The notes under the pieces were generated by a model. The model made no database searches. It was not told the origin of the DNA and was given only the letters and a program-made list of their open reading frames with translations. DNA of 64,000 nt from Pelagovum sp. HNIBRBA483. Lineage in GTDB: Bacteria; Pseudomonadota; Alphaproteobacteria; Rhodobacterales; Rhodobacteraceae. Within the stretch, counting starts at the first letter, position 1. Every line of letters starts with the position of its first letter. Shown in pieces: positions 2,285-9,504 of the stretch. Location of the stretch: contig NZ_CP162412.1 of assembly GCF_040931995.1 (NCBI RefSeq), positions 2,457,001 through 2,521,000 of the forward strand. The letters are read 5' to 3'. Both the position numbers and the translations under genes were made by a program.

Positions 2285-2310
2285 CCTTTGGATATATGAA
2301 GAACCAAAGG
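2285..2310 (+). promoter_or_regulatory. RNA hairpin that masks a strong Shine-Dalgarno sequence
   Basis: CCTTTGG at 2285-2291 pairs with CCAAAGG at 2304-2310, and the pairing can extend imperfectly outward (ATAC/GTAT). The right arm contains most of the ribosome-binding sequence AAAGGAGG (2306-2313). Translation of whatever starts at 2323 would be blocked while the hairpin is closed. This suggests a thermosensor, a riboswitch-like switch or a protein-binding leader. There is no T-run after it, so it is not a simple terminator. The structure is seen in the sequence; the regulatory role is inference. Confidence 0.4.
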
Positions 2311-2322
2311 AGGTATATTTTC

Positions 2323-2376
2323 GTGGATTTGTTCCAGAATTTCCATAAGGTTAATGAGCAATTCGGACCCCAATAA
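2323..2376 (+). CDS. Possible 17-residue leader peptide
   Basis: A GTG codon sits 9 bases after the strong AAAGGAGG and opens a frame of 17 codons (starts MDLFQNFHK) ending in TAA. After one more codon comes an in-frame TAG and then the ATG of the oxidase gene at 2383. The peptide could be a translated leader coupled to the downstream gene, or a remnant of an older N-terminus cut off by the two stops. An ATG at 2296 in the same frame gives a 26-residue alternative. I do not recognise the peptide. Confidence 0.25.
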   Translation: MDLFQNFHKVNEQFGPQ

Positions 2377-2382
2377 TTCTAG

Positions 2383-3942
2383 ATGCCCAAGACCCCAATT
2401 TCAGCCCACGGTGAGAAGAACCAAATCGAACTCGATGTCAGCATAGATGGTCGCACCGAAAAAATCGCTTGCGATACGCTGGTCATCGCGTGCGAACCGC
2501 GCAACCTGCGCACCAAGATCTCCTATTCCGATGATGAGGTCGCGCTCCTGAGTAGCCTCCATAACTTCACCTTCCACACGTCACTTCTGAAGGTGAAGGT
2601 CAAAGACAGGCAGATGAAGCATGGCGTAATTTTCGCGGCCGAACCGCTGTCCAAAATGCGCGGTCACATCTACGGCTTCCGCAACGAAACGGCAAAGTCC
2701 CTCGGCTTGGATTTCGCCAATTCCGTCGAGTATAACTGGGTCACAGTCTACCAGCTTTTCGGAGAAACAACGACACCTCCAACCGAGGATGACTTCCGTA
2801 AGCTGCTCGCAGAAGAGATCGCGCAGCTCAGCTGGTGGCCCTTCGAGCGCAGCTGCGATGGCCTCCAAGAGACGGTCCTGACCCCGTATTTCGACCATTT
2901 CCACGGCGATCAACTGGTGAACCAAAACCCTTGGAACTGGCACAAGATTCAAGGCGATAACAACACGATCTACGTCCACGCCGCGACCTGCTTCGAGTCC
3001 GTCGTCCACTGTTGGTATTACATCAACTGGCTCTTCGAAGGGCATGATGGCGGGCGCGCCATCTTCCCCGAGGACAAATCAACGTCCATCGTCATCCTTG
3101 GCGCCGGTCCTAGCGGCCTGCTCACGGCAGAAGCGCTCAAGCACCGCCATTACACAAATGTCAGGGTGCTCGAAAACACCAACCGCATCGGTGGCAAAAC
3201 CCACACCGTGCCGGTCAAGCAGTACGGCAACTTGGGTAAAGCAACCACGCTCTATTGCGAATTGGGCACCTGCTACCTCTCTCCCCATTACGATAAATTC
3301 GTCAAAAAGATGCACCATTATCTGGATGGCAACACCCAGATCGGCTTCGGCGGTGAAGACGGCACCTTCCGTGGCATCCTGACCGAAGGTCAGTTCAGCG
3401 AGCATTTCCGTAAGACCTACGACCCCCCAAAGATGATGCCCTTCCCCAAATATGTCCTCTACAAAGCGGCCGACTGGCTGAATGTCAGCCCGAGCCACAC
3501 AACGGTCATCGAAGACGCAATCAAAGCCGCAGCCGTGAATTACGAGCGCCTTTACTGGGAGTACTTTGACGAGGCATGGTTTAGTGGCCCGCACTACCCA
3601 ATGCCCGCAGAACCGCCAGCCGATTTCCTGCGTGACTACGGCCACAAGTCCTTCGAGCAGTTCCTTATCGAAAACCACATGGGCGTTCTTCTGGGGATCA
3701 TGCAATACGCCTACTCGGTTCAGGGCTATGGCACATTGAACGACATCCCCGCCTATTACGGTCTGTTGTGGATCACACCCGATATCATTGCCAAAGCGCA
3801 GGCTGGCGACGGGAAAACCACGCTGATCACCGCATGGTCGCGCGGCTGGGGCGATCTGTGGGAGCAGATGAGCGCCCATCTGGATATCACGCTGAACGCC
3901 GAGACGACGCACATTAGAAGGCATGCGCATGGACAAGCGTGA
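2383..3942 (+). CDS. FAD-dependent amine-oxidase-like protein with circularly permuted halves
   Basis: The 519-residue product carries both halves of a flavin amine oxidase in reversed order. Residues about 10-218 match the C-terminal half: the strand IELDVSIDG, the IACDTLVIACEP step, and the closing FAD-contact segment NTIYVHAATCFESV near 194-207. Residues about 234-513 match the N-terminal half: the Rossmann motif GAGPSG at 240-245, Glu264, RIGGKTHT at 268-275, and an end at LNAETTHIRR (504-513), exactly where the first half would continue. The parts sum to about one normal protein. A short linker (GHDGGRAIFPEDK) joins the old C- and N-termini. The substrate is unknown. The 3' end overlaps the next gene by 14 bases. 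It may be active, or it may be a rearrangement relic, although a 1.56-kb open frame argues for retention. Confidence 0.75.
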   Translation: MPKTPISAHGEKNQIELDVSIDGRTEKIACDTLVIACEPRNLRTKISYSDDEVALLSSLHNFTFHTSLLKVKVKDRQMKHGVIFAAEPLSKMRGHIYGFRNETAKSLGLDFANSVEYNWVTVYQLFGETTTPPTEDDFRKLLAEEIAQLSWWPFERSCDGLQETVLTPYFDHFHGDQLVNQNPWNWHKIQGDNNTIYVHAATCFESVVHCWYYINWLFEGHDGGRAIFPEDKSTSIVILGAGPSGLLTAEALKHRHYTNVRVLENTNRIGGKTHTVPVKQYGNLGKATTLYCELGTCYLSPHYDKFVKKMHHYLDGNTQIGFGGEDGTFRGILTEGQFSEHFRKTYDPPKMMPFPKYVLYKAADWLNVSPSHTTVIEDAIKAAAVNYERLYWEYFDEAWFSGPHYPMPAEPPADFLRDYGHKSFEQFLIENHMGVLLGIMQYAYSVQGYGTLNDIPAYYGLLWITPDIIAKAQAGDGKTTLITAWSRGWGDLWEQMSAHLDITLNAETTHIRRHAHGQA

Positions 3943-5701
3943 AACCATCATCGTCGCCGCCGATATCGTGGGCTACTCGCGCCTCGTCGCGCAAAGCGAG
4001 GAAAGCACCATCATGCGGATGCGCGCCCTCTATGACGAGGTAATCTCTCCGGCGATTACCTCTGCAGGTGGCCGCGTGATCAAGAACCTTGGCGATGGAC
4101 TTCTTGTGGAGGCCAATTCAGCCGCAGCCGCGCTTGCAGCCTCGCGCCAAATTCAGGAGAACGTGACCAAGGCCCAAGAAACCATCCCCAGCGACGAGCG
4201 GATCAGATACCGCATCGGGATCAACGCAGGCAGCGCTTATTTCACGGAGGACGATGTCTTTGGCGATGTCATCAACATCGCCGCGCGCCTCGAAAGCCTC
4301 GCCAGACCGGGAGAAATTTGCGTCTCGCAAGCCGTCTACGCCCAGTTGAGCGACGATCAAACCACCCCGCTGCTTCCTCTCGGTCCACAATTTGTCCGCA
4401 ATATTCCGGTGCCGGTCGAGGCATGGCGCCTCCCCAGTCCCGAAAAAGACGCCGCCGCGCCCGAACAAACCGGCAGCCACACAGCGCCAACGATTGCGGT
4501 TCTCCCATTCGAGGCGTCCTTTACGAACGAAGATCTTCGGTTCTTGGGCGACGGGCTGGCGGAGGAGCTGACAACCCAGCTCTCGCGCTTCCGCTTTCTG
4601 TTTGTCATCGCCCGCAACTCGGCCTTCACCTTCCGCGATCGGCAGAACGACCTTCAATCCGTCGCCCGCGAGCTTGGCGTTTCCTATCTGGTCACGGGCC
4701 GCGTGCGCACCGCAGGATCTCGGGTCAGGGTGCATGTGGATCTTATCGACGGCAAAACCGGTGCGCAGGTCTGGGCAGACAGGCTGGACAGCGAGATCGA
4801 GGATTTATTTGAACTGCAAGACGAGCTGACGCGGGCAACCCTCAGCAATGTCGTTCCCGAGTTGGGCGCAAACGAGCGGGCATTATCCCTGAAAAAGCCA
4901 ACCGAAAGCCTTAACGCTTGGGGCCTCTGCCAGCGCGGTATGTCCGAACAATTCAAATACACCGACCAAGGCGTCACCGACGCTTTCAAACTGTTTACTG
5001 AGGCCATCGAAGCCGACCCGAAATTTGCCCTCCCCTATGCCCTTCTGGCGCGGTGGCATGTCGCCCAAGTCACCACGGGGCGTAGCGAAAATATTCCACT
5101 CGAAATCCAGAAAGGCTACGCCCGCGCAACCGAGGCGTTGCAGCTCGACGACCGGCTTGAAGACGCCCACGCAGCCCTCGGCGCGATCCTCGGCATCATG
5201 GGGCAGGATGTCGAGGCGTTGAAATCTCTCGATCGCGCCGAAGCGCTCAACGGTTACAGCCCCTATGTGTTCTATACGCGCACCTATGTGCATCTCTTTC
5301 AGGCGCAAATTGACTGCGCCGCGATGGAAAAGGCCGCCCTCGGGGCGATCCGCGTCAGCCCAAAAGACCCCATCGCTTGGGCGCAATATTTCATGCTCGG
5401 CACAGCCCGCTGGAACTATGATCTCCGCAATCCCGCCGATGGCACACAAGACGCGCTAGATCAGGCGTGTAGCTACTCGAACTGCGAGTTCTTCGTCTAC
5501 ATGATCGCAGCCAAATTCCATGTCCGTTTCGGTGACATTACCGTCGCGCGCCATTATCTCGAACGCGCTCTGGCAAAGAAGAAAGACCTCAGCCTCAAAA
5601 TGTGGCGTACTTTCTTCCCCTTCCGCGCATGGCCCGCAATGATCGCGGAGACAGAACCCGAGCTTGAAACACTCGTCAGCTTCAGTCTGCCGCGCGAATA
5701 G
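3929..5701 (+). CDS. Class III adenylate cyclase with TolB-like and TPR regions
   Basis: The N-terminal catalytic domain (residues 1-165) should make cAMP from ATP. Metal-binding Asp12 (ADIVGYSRL) and Asp56 (NLGDG), adenine-selecting Asp113 and transition-state residues Asn116 and Arg120 (DVINIAAR) are all present. A linker leads to a TolB-like N-terminal module at about 188-305 (IAVLPF, FLGDGLAEEL, YLVTGRVR, VWADR). Helical TPR-type repeats follow to residue 590. This layout is common in rhizobial and roseobacter cyclases. The ATG at 3929 has AGAAGG 7 bases upstream and is preferred over 3923. The gene overlaps the permuted oxidase, which suggests co-transcription. No transmembrane segment is evident, so it is probably cytoplasmic. 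Confidence 0.88.
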   Translation: MDKRETIIVAADIVGYSRLVAQSEESTIMRMRALYDEVISPAITSAGGRVIKNLGDGLLVEANSAAAALAASRQIQENVTKAQETIPSDERIRYRIGINAGSAYFTEDDVFGDVINIAARLESLARPGEICVSQAVYAQLSDDQTTPLLPLGPQFVRNIPVPVEAWRLPSPEKDAAAPEQTGSHTAPTIAVLPFEASFTNEDLRFLGDGLAEELTTQLSRFRFLFVIARNSAFTFRDRQNDLQSVARELGVSYLVTGRVRTAGSRVRVHVDLIDGKTGAQVWADRLDSEIEDLFELQDELTRATLSNVVPELGANERALSLKKPTESLNAWGLCQRGMSEQFKYTDQGVTDAFKLFTEAIEADPKFALPYALLARWHVAQVTTGRSENIPLEIQKGYARATEALQLDDRLEDAHAALGAILGIMGQDVEALKSLDRAEALNGYSPYVFYTRTYVHLFQAQIDCAAMEKAALGAIRVSPKDPIAWAQYFMLGTARWNYDLRNPADGTQDALDQACSYSNCEFFVYMIAAKFHVRFGDITVARHYLERALAKKKDLSLKMWRTFFPFRAWPAMIAETEPELETLVSFSLPRE

Positions 5702-6721: not shown

Positions 6722-8332
6722 ATGGAACACTTCGATTACATCATCGTCGGCGCAGGGTCCGCAGGCTGCGTTCTGGCCGAAAGGCTCAGCGCTTCGGGCC
6801 GCCATAAAGTGCTCGTTCTCGAAGCAGGCGGCCCCGGTCGCTCGCCGTGGATCAGCCTGCCGTTGGGCTACGGCAAGTCCTTCTACGACCCAAAGGTCAA
6901 CTGGCAGTACGAGACAGAACCCGAAGAAACACTGGCTGGTCGCCGCAGCTACTGGCCGCGCGGCAAGGTCGTTGGCGGCTCCGGCGCGATCAATGCAATG
7001 GTCTATGCGCGCGGGCTTCCAAATGATTTTGAGGATTGGGAAGCAGCAGGCGCCACCGGCTGGGGCTGGGAAACCGTCCGCCAAACCTATGAGGCCATCG
7101 AAACCCGTGTCGCCGCAGACGGAACGCGCAGCGGCTCCGGCCCCCTCCATGTGCAGGACGTCTCCGATCAAATCCACCGCGCCAACCGCCATTTCTTCGC
7201 AGCAACGGCGGAACTTGGCCTGCCCCGCACCGATGACATCAACGGTCCAAACAACGAAGGCGCAGCCGTCTACCAGATCAACACCAGCGGCGGTCGCCGG
7301 ATGCATTCGGCGCGCGCGTTTCTAAAACCCGCCCTCAAGCGCCCCAATGTCACGCTGATAACCGGCGTGCTGGTCGAACGCATCGTTTTTGAGGGCACCC
7401 GCGCGGTCGCCGTGCAGGCCACCAAAGGCGGGCGCAGCATGACGCTAAAGGCTGGCCGCGAGATCATCCTCTCCGCAGGCTCCGTCACCTCGCCACGCCT
7501 GTTGCAGCTGTCCGGGATCGGCCCCGCAAACCTGCTCAAGTCTCACGGCATCATGCCGCTGCTGGATGCCCCGCAGGTTGGCGGCAACCTGCAAGACCAC
7601 CTTGGCATCAACTATTATTTCCGCGCCACCGAACCCACGCTGAACAACGTCCTGCGCCCGTTCACCGGCAAACTGCGCGTGGCGCTGCAATACGCCCTCA
7701 CGCGGCGCGGCCCGCTGGCCCTTTCGGTCAACCAATGCGGCGGCTATTTCCGCTCCGATCCAAGCCTGCCCCACCCCGACCAGCAGCTCTATTTCAACCC
7801 CGTAACCTATACCACGTCGCCGGATGGCAAGCGCACCGTGGTGCAGCCCGATGCCTTCGCTGGTTTCATCATCAGCTTCCAGCCTTCCCGCCCCACCAGC
7901 CGTGGCCGCATCGACATCAGCAGCGCCGATCCGTCCGCAGCGCCCAGCATCCGCCCGAATTCACTCGCCACCGAGGAAGACCGCGCGCAGGTGATCGCAG
8001 GCGGCCGCCTTTGCCAGCGCTACATGGCGACCGCCGCGCTGCAAGGCTTGGCGGATGGCCCCGTCGGCCCCGATCTCCGGCAGATGGATGACGCCACCAT
8101 CCTCGAGGATTTCCGCGAGCGCTGCGGCACCGTCTACCACCCGATCGGCACCTGCCGCATGGGGTCTGACGCGCATCAATCTGTCGTTGATCCACAGCTG
8201 CGAGTGCATGGCATCCACGGCCTTCGCGTCATAGATGCGTCCGTCTTCCCCAATCTCACCTCGGCCAACACCAACGCGCCGACCATGATGTTGGCGCACC
8301 GCGCCGCCGACCTGATACTGGAGGCCCAATGA
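6722..8332 (+). CDS. GMC family FAD oxidoreductase (choline-dehydrogenase-like)
   Basis: This flavoenzyme should oxidise an alcohol to an aldehyde. It opens with the FAD dinucleotide motif DYIIVGAGSAGCVLAERL and has both GMC signatures: PRGKVVGGSGAINAMVYARG near residue 90 and the AGSVTSPRLLQLSGIG region. The C-terminal active-site segment is VYHPIGTCRMG (catalytic His) with Asn in NTNAPTMM. The 536-residue length fits the family. The start at 6722 has GAGGA just upstream. An in-frame upward extension lacks the family sequence and overlaps the divergent LysR start. The stop overlaps the next ATG (ATGA), so it is co-translated with an enolase-family enzyme and an aldehyde dehydrogenase. Choline itself is unlikely because no betB/betI partner is present. 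Confidence 0.9.
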   Translation: MEHFDYIIVGAGSAGCVLAERLSASGRHKVLVLEAGGPGRSPWISLPLGYGKSFYDPKVNWQYETEPEETLAGRRSYWPRGKVVGGSGAINAMVYARGLPNDFEDWEAAGATGWGWETVRQTYEAIETRVAADGTRSGSGPLHVQDVSDQIHRANRHFFAATAELGLPRTDDINGPNNEGAAVYQINTSGGRRMHSARAFLKPALKRPNVTLITGVLVERIVFEGTRAVAVQATKGGRSMTLKAGREIILSAGSVTSPRLLQLSGIGPANLLKSHGIMPLLDAPQVGGNLQDHLGINYYFRATEPTLNNVLRPFTGKLRVALQYALTRRGPLALSVNQCGGYFRSDPSLPHPDQQLYFNPVTYTTSPDGKRTVVQPDAFAGFIISFQPSRPTSRGRIDISSADPSAAPSIRPNSLATEEDRAQVIAGGRLCQRYMATAALQGLADGPVGPDLRQMDDATILEDFRERCGTVYHPIGTCRMGSDAHQSVVDPQLRVHGIHGLRVIDASVFPNLTSANTNAPTMMLAHRAADLILEAQ

Positions 8333-9504
8333 GCACACCCTATTCAATGTCCGGCGCGGTGCCGGTCGCCAATGACCGCAGCCAGCATGACACCGGCCCC
8401 CGCATCCAACGGATCGAAACCTTCTGCACGCCCCTGATCGGCTTCGTCCGCGTCACCGCCGAGGATGGCACGACAGGCTGGGGGCAGGTTTCCACCTACA
8501 GCAGCGATCTGACCTGCGAGATTCTTCACCGTCAGGTGGCCCCATGGGCACTCGGGCGCGGCATGGATGCGCTTGAGGATGTCATTTCAGAGATCCCGCT
8601 GCGCGAACACAAATTCCCCGGCACCTATCTGCGCCGTGCGATGGCCGGCCTTGATACCGCCGTCTGGGACTGGCGTGGCAAGGTCGCTGAACAGCCCGTC
8701 GCCGTGGTCATGGGCGGCACCGCTGGCCCGCTCCGCGCCTACGCGTCCTCCATGCGCCGCGACATTACGCCGGAGGATGAAGCAGACCGCCTGAAAAAGC
8801 TGCGCGATACCTTCGGCTTTCATGCCTTCAAAGTGCGCGTCGGTGCCGAATGCGGCCAAGACCGCGACGAATGGGAAGGCCGGACCGAGGCGATAATCCC
8901 CACTATCCGCAAGGCGATGGGGCCAGATGCCGCCCTCTTGGTTGACGGCAATTCCGGCTTCGGCCCCGCCCGCGCGATCGCGGTGGGCCGGATGCTCGAA
9001 GCCAATGGCTACGAACATTTCGAAGAACCCTGCCCCTATTGGGAACTGGAACAAACAGCCGAAGTGACCCGCGCCCTGTCGATCAACGTCGCGGGCGGCG
9101 AGCAGGATTGGGATTTGCAGCAATGGAAACGCATCATCGCCATGCGCGCGGTTGATATCATCCAACCCGATGTCCTCTATCTCGGCGGCATGACCCGCAG
9201 CATGGAGGTCGCTCGCATGGGCCACGCGGCGGGCCTGCCCTGCACCCCGCATGCGGCAAACCTGTCGCTGGTGACGATGTTCACCATGCACCTGCTGCGG
9301 GCCGTTCCCAATCCGGGCCTTTACCTTGAGTTCTCGATTGAGGGTGATGACTATTACCCTTGGCAGCGGGAGCTGTTCCTCAACGATCCCTTCATCATCA
9401 CCAACGGTCAGGCCACCGTGACCGATGCCCCTGGCTGGGGCGTCGAAATCAATCCCGAGTGGCTCGCCAAATCCGCCTATAAATGCAGCGAGGTTTCCGC
9501 ATGA
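8329..9504 (+). CDS. Mandelate racemase/muconate lactonizing enzyme family protein
   Basis: This is an enolase-superfamily enzyme of 391 residues, expected to dehydrate or racemise a hydroxy or sugar acid by abstracting the proton next to a carboxylate. The Mg2+ ligands are visible: Asp206 (LLVDGN), Glu232 (FEEP) and Glu258 (GGEQ). His308 (TPHAA) is the opposite-face base. The first base motif reads K168-V-R170 instead of the common K-x-K, so one of the two lysines is an arginine, which may point to dehydration rather than racemisation. Translation is coupled to the GMC gene before and the aldehyde dehydrogenase after by ATGA overlaps. The true substrate is unknown. Confidence 0.9.
   Translation: MSTPYSMSGAVPVANDRSQHDTGPRIQRIETFCTPLIGFVRVTAEDGTTGWGQVSTYSSDLTCEILHRQVAPWALGRGMDALEDVISEIPLREHKFPGTYLRRAMAGLDTAVWDWRGKVAEQPVAVVMGGTAGPLRAYASSMRRDITPEDEADRLKKLRDTFGFHAFKVRVGAECGQDRDEWEGRTEAIIPTIRKAMGPDAALLVDGNSGFGPARAIAVGRMLEANGYEHFEEPCPYWELEQTAEVTRALSINVAGGEQDWDLQQWKRIIAMRAVDIIQPDVLYLGGMTRSMEVARMGHAAGLPCTPHAANLSLVTMFTMHLLRAVPNPGLYLEFSIEGDDYYPWQRELFLNDPFIITNGQATVTDAPGWGVEINPEWLAKSAYKCSEVSA

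Follow-up and report, generated by a model that had tools for sequence, protein, structure and literature searches.

Genes and features at the locus

The analyzed window, a stretch of 64,000 nucleotides from Pelagovum sp. HNIBRBA483, contains an open reading frame on the plus strand (2383..3942) whose 519 codons are read without interruption. The sequence and profile searches assign the encoded 519-amino-acid protein to the FAD amine-oxidase superfamily and indicate a permuted order of its parts. The source assembly has a size of 3.04 Mb in 2 contigs and is 99% complete; the locus lies on the contig of 2.97 Mb.

The protein can be divided into five segments, all encoded on the plus strand. At the new N-terminus there is an addition of nine residues, MPKTPISAH (residues 1-9, 2383..2409), which has no homologue; homology begins at about residue 9. 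It is followed by the former C-terminal part (residues 10-218, 2410..3036), which covers profile positions 265 or 276 onwards, depending on the profile, and comprises the last strands of the FAD domain, a portion of the substrate domain, and the C-terminal FAD segment. A linker of about 12 residues (about 219-231, 3037..3075), located from the sequence and the optimum of a rotation scan, leads from the old C-terminus to the old N-terminus; it is in frame and contains neither a stop codon nor an ATG start codon. The former N-terminal part (residues 232-513, 3076..3921; profile positions 13 to 259 or 279) contains the Rossmann FAD site and the first portion of the substrate domain. The new C-terminus carries an addition of six residues, HAHGQA (residues 514-519, 3922..3942 including the stop codon), which are the first codons of an overlapping cyclase gene read in another frame.

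The motif set of the superfamily is present. The GxGxxG motif for dinucleotide binding occurs as GAGPSG (residues 240-245, 3100..3117), the acidic residue after strand 2 is E264, and the R..GG motif is RIGG (residues 268-271) within RIGGKTH (residues 268-274, 3184..3204). In the first part, NTIYVHAATCFESV is found at about residues 194-207. According to the alignment, TIYVHAATCFES (residues 195-206, 2965..3000) corresponds to TWYAGSSACFES in relatives of normal order, and the family fold predicts that it contacts the FAD. The boundaries of the reading frame and the motifs GAGPSG, RIGGKTH, and NTIYVHAATCFESV agree exactly with the initial annotation of this DNA.

The start codon ATG 2383 directly abuts an in-frame TAG on its 5′ side and has no Shine-Dalgarno sequence directly before it. 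Further upstream, the strong Shine-Dalgarno-like sequence AAAGGAGG (2306-2313, plus strand) precedes a 17-amino-acid open reading frame with a GTG start (MDLFQNFHKVNEQFGPQ; 2323-2376, plus strand), which is in frame with the permuted gene, is closed by a TAA preceding the TAG, and ends six bases upstream of the ATG. Judged from the sequence, reinitiation is the likeliest route by which ATG 2383 would be reached, and AAAGGAGG together with the 17-amino-acid frame is possibly a reinitiation leader or the leftover of an earlier start. On the 3′ side, a class III adenylate-cyclase/TPR-like gene (3923..5701, plus strand; family call from the sequence) overlaps the permuted gene by 20 bases, and the two are likely co-transcribed. 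Translation would probably proceed via reinitiation after the 17-amino-acid leader, coupled to the overlapping cyclase gene. The other flank is occupied by a LacI-type regulator, and the permuted gene is bordered by coding sequence on both sides. Among 199 family genomes, the nearest relative of the cyclase (L059) shares no more than 45% identity with it and is found in another gene context. Inspection of the surroundings for flanking repeats, RNA families, and promoters revealed nothing notable and no long repeats. Further downstream in the window, an enolase-superfamily gene (8329-9504) shows 75% DNA identity to Phaeobacter plasmids, in keeping with a roseobacter-like genome.

Order of the two parts and position of the break

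The initial annotation had described the protein as circularly permuted, with a single break, a linker joining the old termini, and no half duplicated or missing. We found that the Pfam profile Amino_oxidase (PF01593) matches residues 244-517 only, at profile positions 2-234 of 443. When the two parts were put back into the usual order, the score rose from 36.6 to 50.4 bits, both above the gathering threshold of 19.8 bits, and the match then crossed the break and reached position 274. Restored-order sequences were used as search queries and for scoring only. The first half searched alone against Pfam gave no match.

Profiles of homologues placed both parts. With a profile of four normal-order homologues, from which the permuted protein was left out, residues 9-214 aligned to positions 276-472 and residues 232-517 to positions 13-279, so that the two matched parts abut at positions 276-279 without gap or duplication. 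A profile of eight homologues, consisting of normal-order proteins only and likewise excluding the permuted protein, matched residues 22-218 at positions 265-446 (i-E 3e-8) and residues 232-517 at positions 13-259 (i-E 9e-30), and yielded one alignment for the restored order (E 2e-45). The first half alone was again placed at positions 265-446 (i-E 3e-9, Z = 200,000), that is, after the second half, as the permuted reading predicts. Against a profile of six homologues the two real halves reached domain scores of 33.0 and 93.9 bits, and the maximum full-sequence score among 200 residue shuffles was 3.1 bits. In the rotation scan, the best single alignment was obtained with a cut at residue 222, inside the linker and within a plateau that spans residues 207-237. 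In addition, a 481-amino-acid open reading frame from the class-wide search (L014) matched residues 232-470 of the query first and residues 7-219 thereafter.

The order seen in L014, the homologue profiles, and the rotation scan bear out the permutation; the abutting profile positions confirm the single break, and the rotation optimum confirms the linker. Both parts are homologous to one parent, their order is swapped, the old termini are joined, and nothing is lost or doubled. The dinucleotide-binding motif, which is not N-terminal here and sits at residue 240 behind the C-terminal part, marks the protein as a homologue and permuted derivative rather than a member of the standard architecture.

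In the normal-order fold, the cut falls into a beta-hairpin turn of two residues within the FAD domain. In the model of a normal-order homologue (L045, which is the same as L014) it follows residue 278, where this turn connects strand 271-278 to strand 281-288, and it is placed within one or two residues. This model has a pLDDT of 65.9 and a pTM of 0.71, with a pLDDT of about 90 around the cut site. At the restored break, the permuted protein (THIRR-GEKN-QIEL) and its relatives do not differ in length, which shows that nothing is missing there.

AlphaFold2 modelling of the permuted chain itself, with an input of only nine partly misaligned rows, gave a pLDDT of 53.8 and a pTM of 0.46; a trimmed alignment intended as a cleaner input turned out to be worse. 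The most confident pieces of the model include the FAD-domain strands of both ends and the Rossmann motif (about 11-40, 231-270, and 500-513). A Foldseek search of this model against the PDB returned no match at E < 0.001; it is uninformative, since the model is poor and the aligner follows sequence order.

One gene lineage and possible routes of rearrangement

Residues invariant in six relatives are retained at 11 of 18 positions in the first part and at 18 of 29 in the second, including all FAD-site glycines and Glu264, at an overall identity of about 24%. The codon-usage scores of the two parts (0.252 and 0.247) and their GC3 values (0.724 and 0.722) are close to each other and within the range of the neighbours in the window. 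In separate trees of the two parts, the permuted protein falls on the same internal branch, and its own branch is long in both trees (1.6 and 2.1). The shared codon usage, the retained invariant residues, and the common branch show, at the level of sequence, that both parts stem from one divergent gene lineage, which was rearranged and then maintained with its reading frame open. A chance fusion of two unrelated partial genes could account for the lack of a Pfam match to the first half alone; we regard it as the most improbable explanation, given that this half corresponds precisely to the portion of the family that the second half lacks, that both halves share a tree branch, and that there is neither overlap nor gap at the break.

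The permuted gene is a single sequence and an orphan in its family, for which no orthologue was found. The protein matches nothing in the genome apart from the permuted reading frame, and no normal-order copy exists there. Single-sequence searches of 397 family, 385 class, and 398 phylum genomes and profile searches of 385 class and 229 family genomes, all overlapping samples, revealed no relative of the same order, roughly 1,000 relatives being covered in all. GTDB scans found none either, though their search by short exact patterns can overlook remote relatives. Among phages, plasmids, and IMG/VR no close relative was detected; restored-order queries matched only distantly, and L014 found only a distant match among plasmids (Photobacterium). 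The occurrence in one genome, with no second genome of the same order, would be expected if a normal-order gene had been broken and misjoined in silico. Against such an assembly or sequencing artefact stands the linker: a normal-order gene would have a stop codon and a leader between its C-terminus and its N-terminus, and the in-frame linker observed could come from a misassembly only if this stop had been lost in the process. Considering also the long contig of a nearly complete assembly and the coding flanks free of long repeats, we judge an artefact to be very improbable.

A further explanation accepts the permutation and regards the gene as a rearrangement relic without function, whose frame has stayed open by chance. 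This would be in agreement with the weak start context with its two in-frame stops just 5′ of ATG 2383, with the orphan status of the gene, and with the change of 18 of the 47 invariant residues. The uninterrupted frame of 519 codons, genome-typical codon usage in both halves, the complete set of FAD-site glycines, and the exact joining without loss at the break argue in the opposite direction, and a relic thus appears unlikely. Overall, we consider the reading frame to encode a real, naturally arisen circular permutant of a protein from the PAI-like (fatty-acid-isomerase-like) branch of the FAD amine-oxidase superfamily, with a probability of roughly 0.75. Counting against this reading are the poor AlphaFold2 model of the permuted chain and the lack of a Shine-Dalgarno sequence directly before ATG 2383; in addition, about 38% of the positions invariant in six relatives are changed and the branch is long, so that the activity or specificity of the protein may be altered or gone.

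For the origin of the permuted gene, we favour neither a tandem duplication trimmed at both ends nor the opening of a circle, the two routes put forward initially. Insertion of an opened circle would give exact abutment by itself, and a tandem duplication would need two trims that coincide; selection for one complete set could also yield exact abutment after duplication. Remnants of the removed halves, which a trimmed duplication might leave upstream or downstream, were not clearly above chance: the best six-frame score in the intergenic stretch was 41, a value attained by 19 Markov controls and by 13 real segments, out of 500 each. The similar AHG element at the two ends (HAHGQA and SAHGEK) did not reach significance in a targeted test (p about 0.16), and HAHGQA is read from the cyclase start. 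An empty insertion site was not found; the nearest family relative of the cyclase (G031) has other neighbours, the permuted gene not among them. The more specific scenario of a working natural permutant made in one step, in which a circular copy of the gene was opened in the hairpin turn and integrated with the LacI-type regulator on one side and the cyclase gene on the other, would explain both the exact abutment and the flanking DNA starting at once at both new ends. We put this forward tentatively, as a doubtful proposal.

Family placement and relation to known permutants

The closest solved protein by profile is the polyunsaturated fatty acid isomerase of P. acnes (2b9w), which is matched over both domains (E 2.6e-33, with a profile that includes the permuted protein and three relatives) and is also the top match by single sequence. 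It is the best structure match of the L045 model as well (E 2e-19, TM 0.69/0.78). The initial designation as FAD amine-oxidase-like therefore holds for the superfamily, and the placement is refined to the fatty-acid-isomerase-like branch rather than the amine oxidases proper. The eight homologues, namely L014/L045, L046, L015/L048, and L035/L047 from alphaproteobacteria, the more distant L016 and L053, and L073 and L074 from outside alphaproteobacterial genomes, are all full-length and of normal order. They share the domain set of the permuted protein over their full length, and the nearest four are 22-26% identical to its restored sequence. L074 (MT836859.1, 8.5 kb, from human faeces), an unverified entry labelled bacteriophage, carries an intact 459-amino-acid PAI-like reading frame of normal order; its scaffold is more likely bacterial DNA than a carrier of a phage gene.

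L014 (1-3645) adjoins acyltransferase-like and patatin-like reading frames, products guessed from reading the sequence. This neighbourhood hints at a lipid-related function of the subfamily and, together with 2b9w as the closest protein, makes a hydrophobic, fatty-acid-like substrate our best guess, at low confidence.

Monoamine oxidases, LSD1, L-amino-acid oxidases, and PAI share a two-domain FAD fold in which both chain ends contribute to the FAD site. The permuted chain would fold into this usual flavoprotein, with one FAD enclosed by the GAGPSG/E264/RIGG site, which the second half supplies, and by residues 195-206, the C-terminal FAD segment, which the first half supplies. The last strand, 506-513, would still pair with strand 15-21, now at the chain start, and the linker would span the old termini, which must be close together on this fold. 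Flavin hydride transfer on a hydrophobic, possibly fatty-acid-like substrate would be the expected chemistry.

A natural permutant shows which connection the two-domain FAD fold can do without, and the hairpin turn in the FAD domain marks a break site for engineering new termini. With neither half duplicated or lost, the gene offers a tangible example on which the origin of permutations in bacteria can be tested.

The relation to 2b9w is distant, and the two proteins differ in the position of the GxGxxG segment, which is N-terminal in the isomerase and lies behind the C-terminal part in the permuted protein. Circular permutation itself is known in other proteins, and the genomes and papers searched held no other case in this enzyme family; among the titles and abstracts of the literature, with partial coverage, we found no natural permutant of the amine-oxidase-type FAD fold. 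LucY is an engineered flavoprotein permutant (PMC4408115). Natural circular permutations have been described in lectins, saposin/swaposin, DNA methyltransferases, and transhydrogenases, and in these, as at the present locus, the old termini are joined, the new termini lie elsewhere, and the fold is presumed to be kept (PMC3320104).
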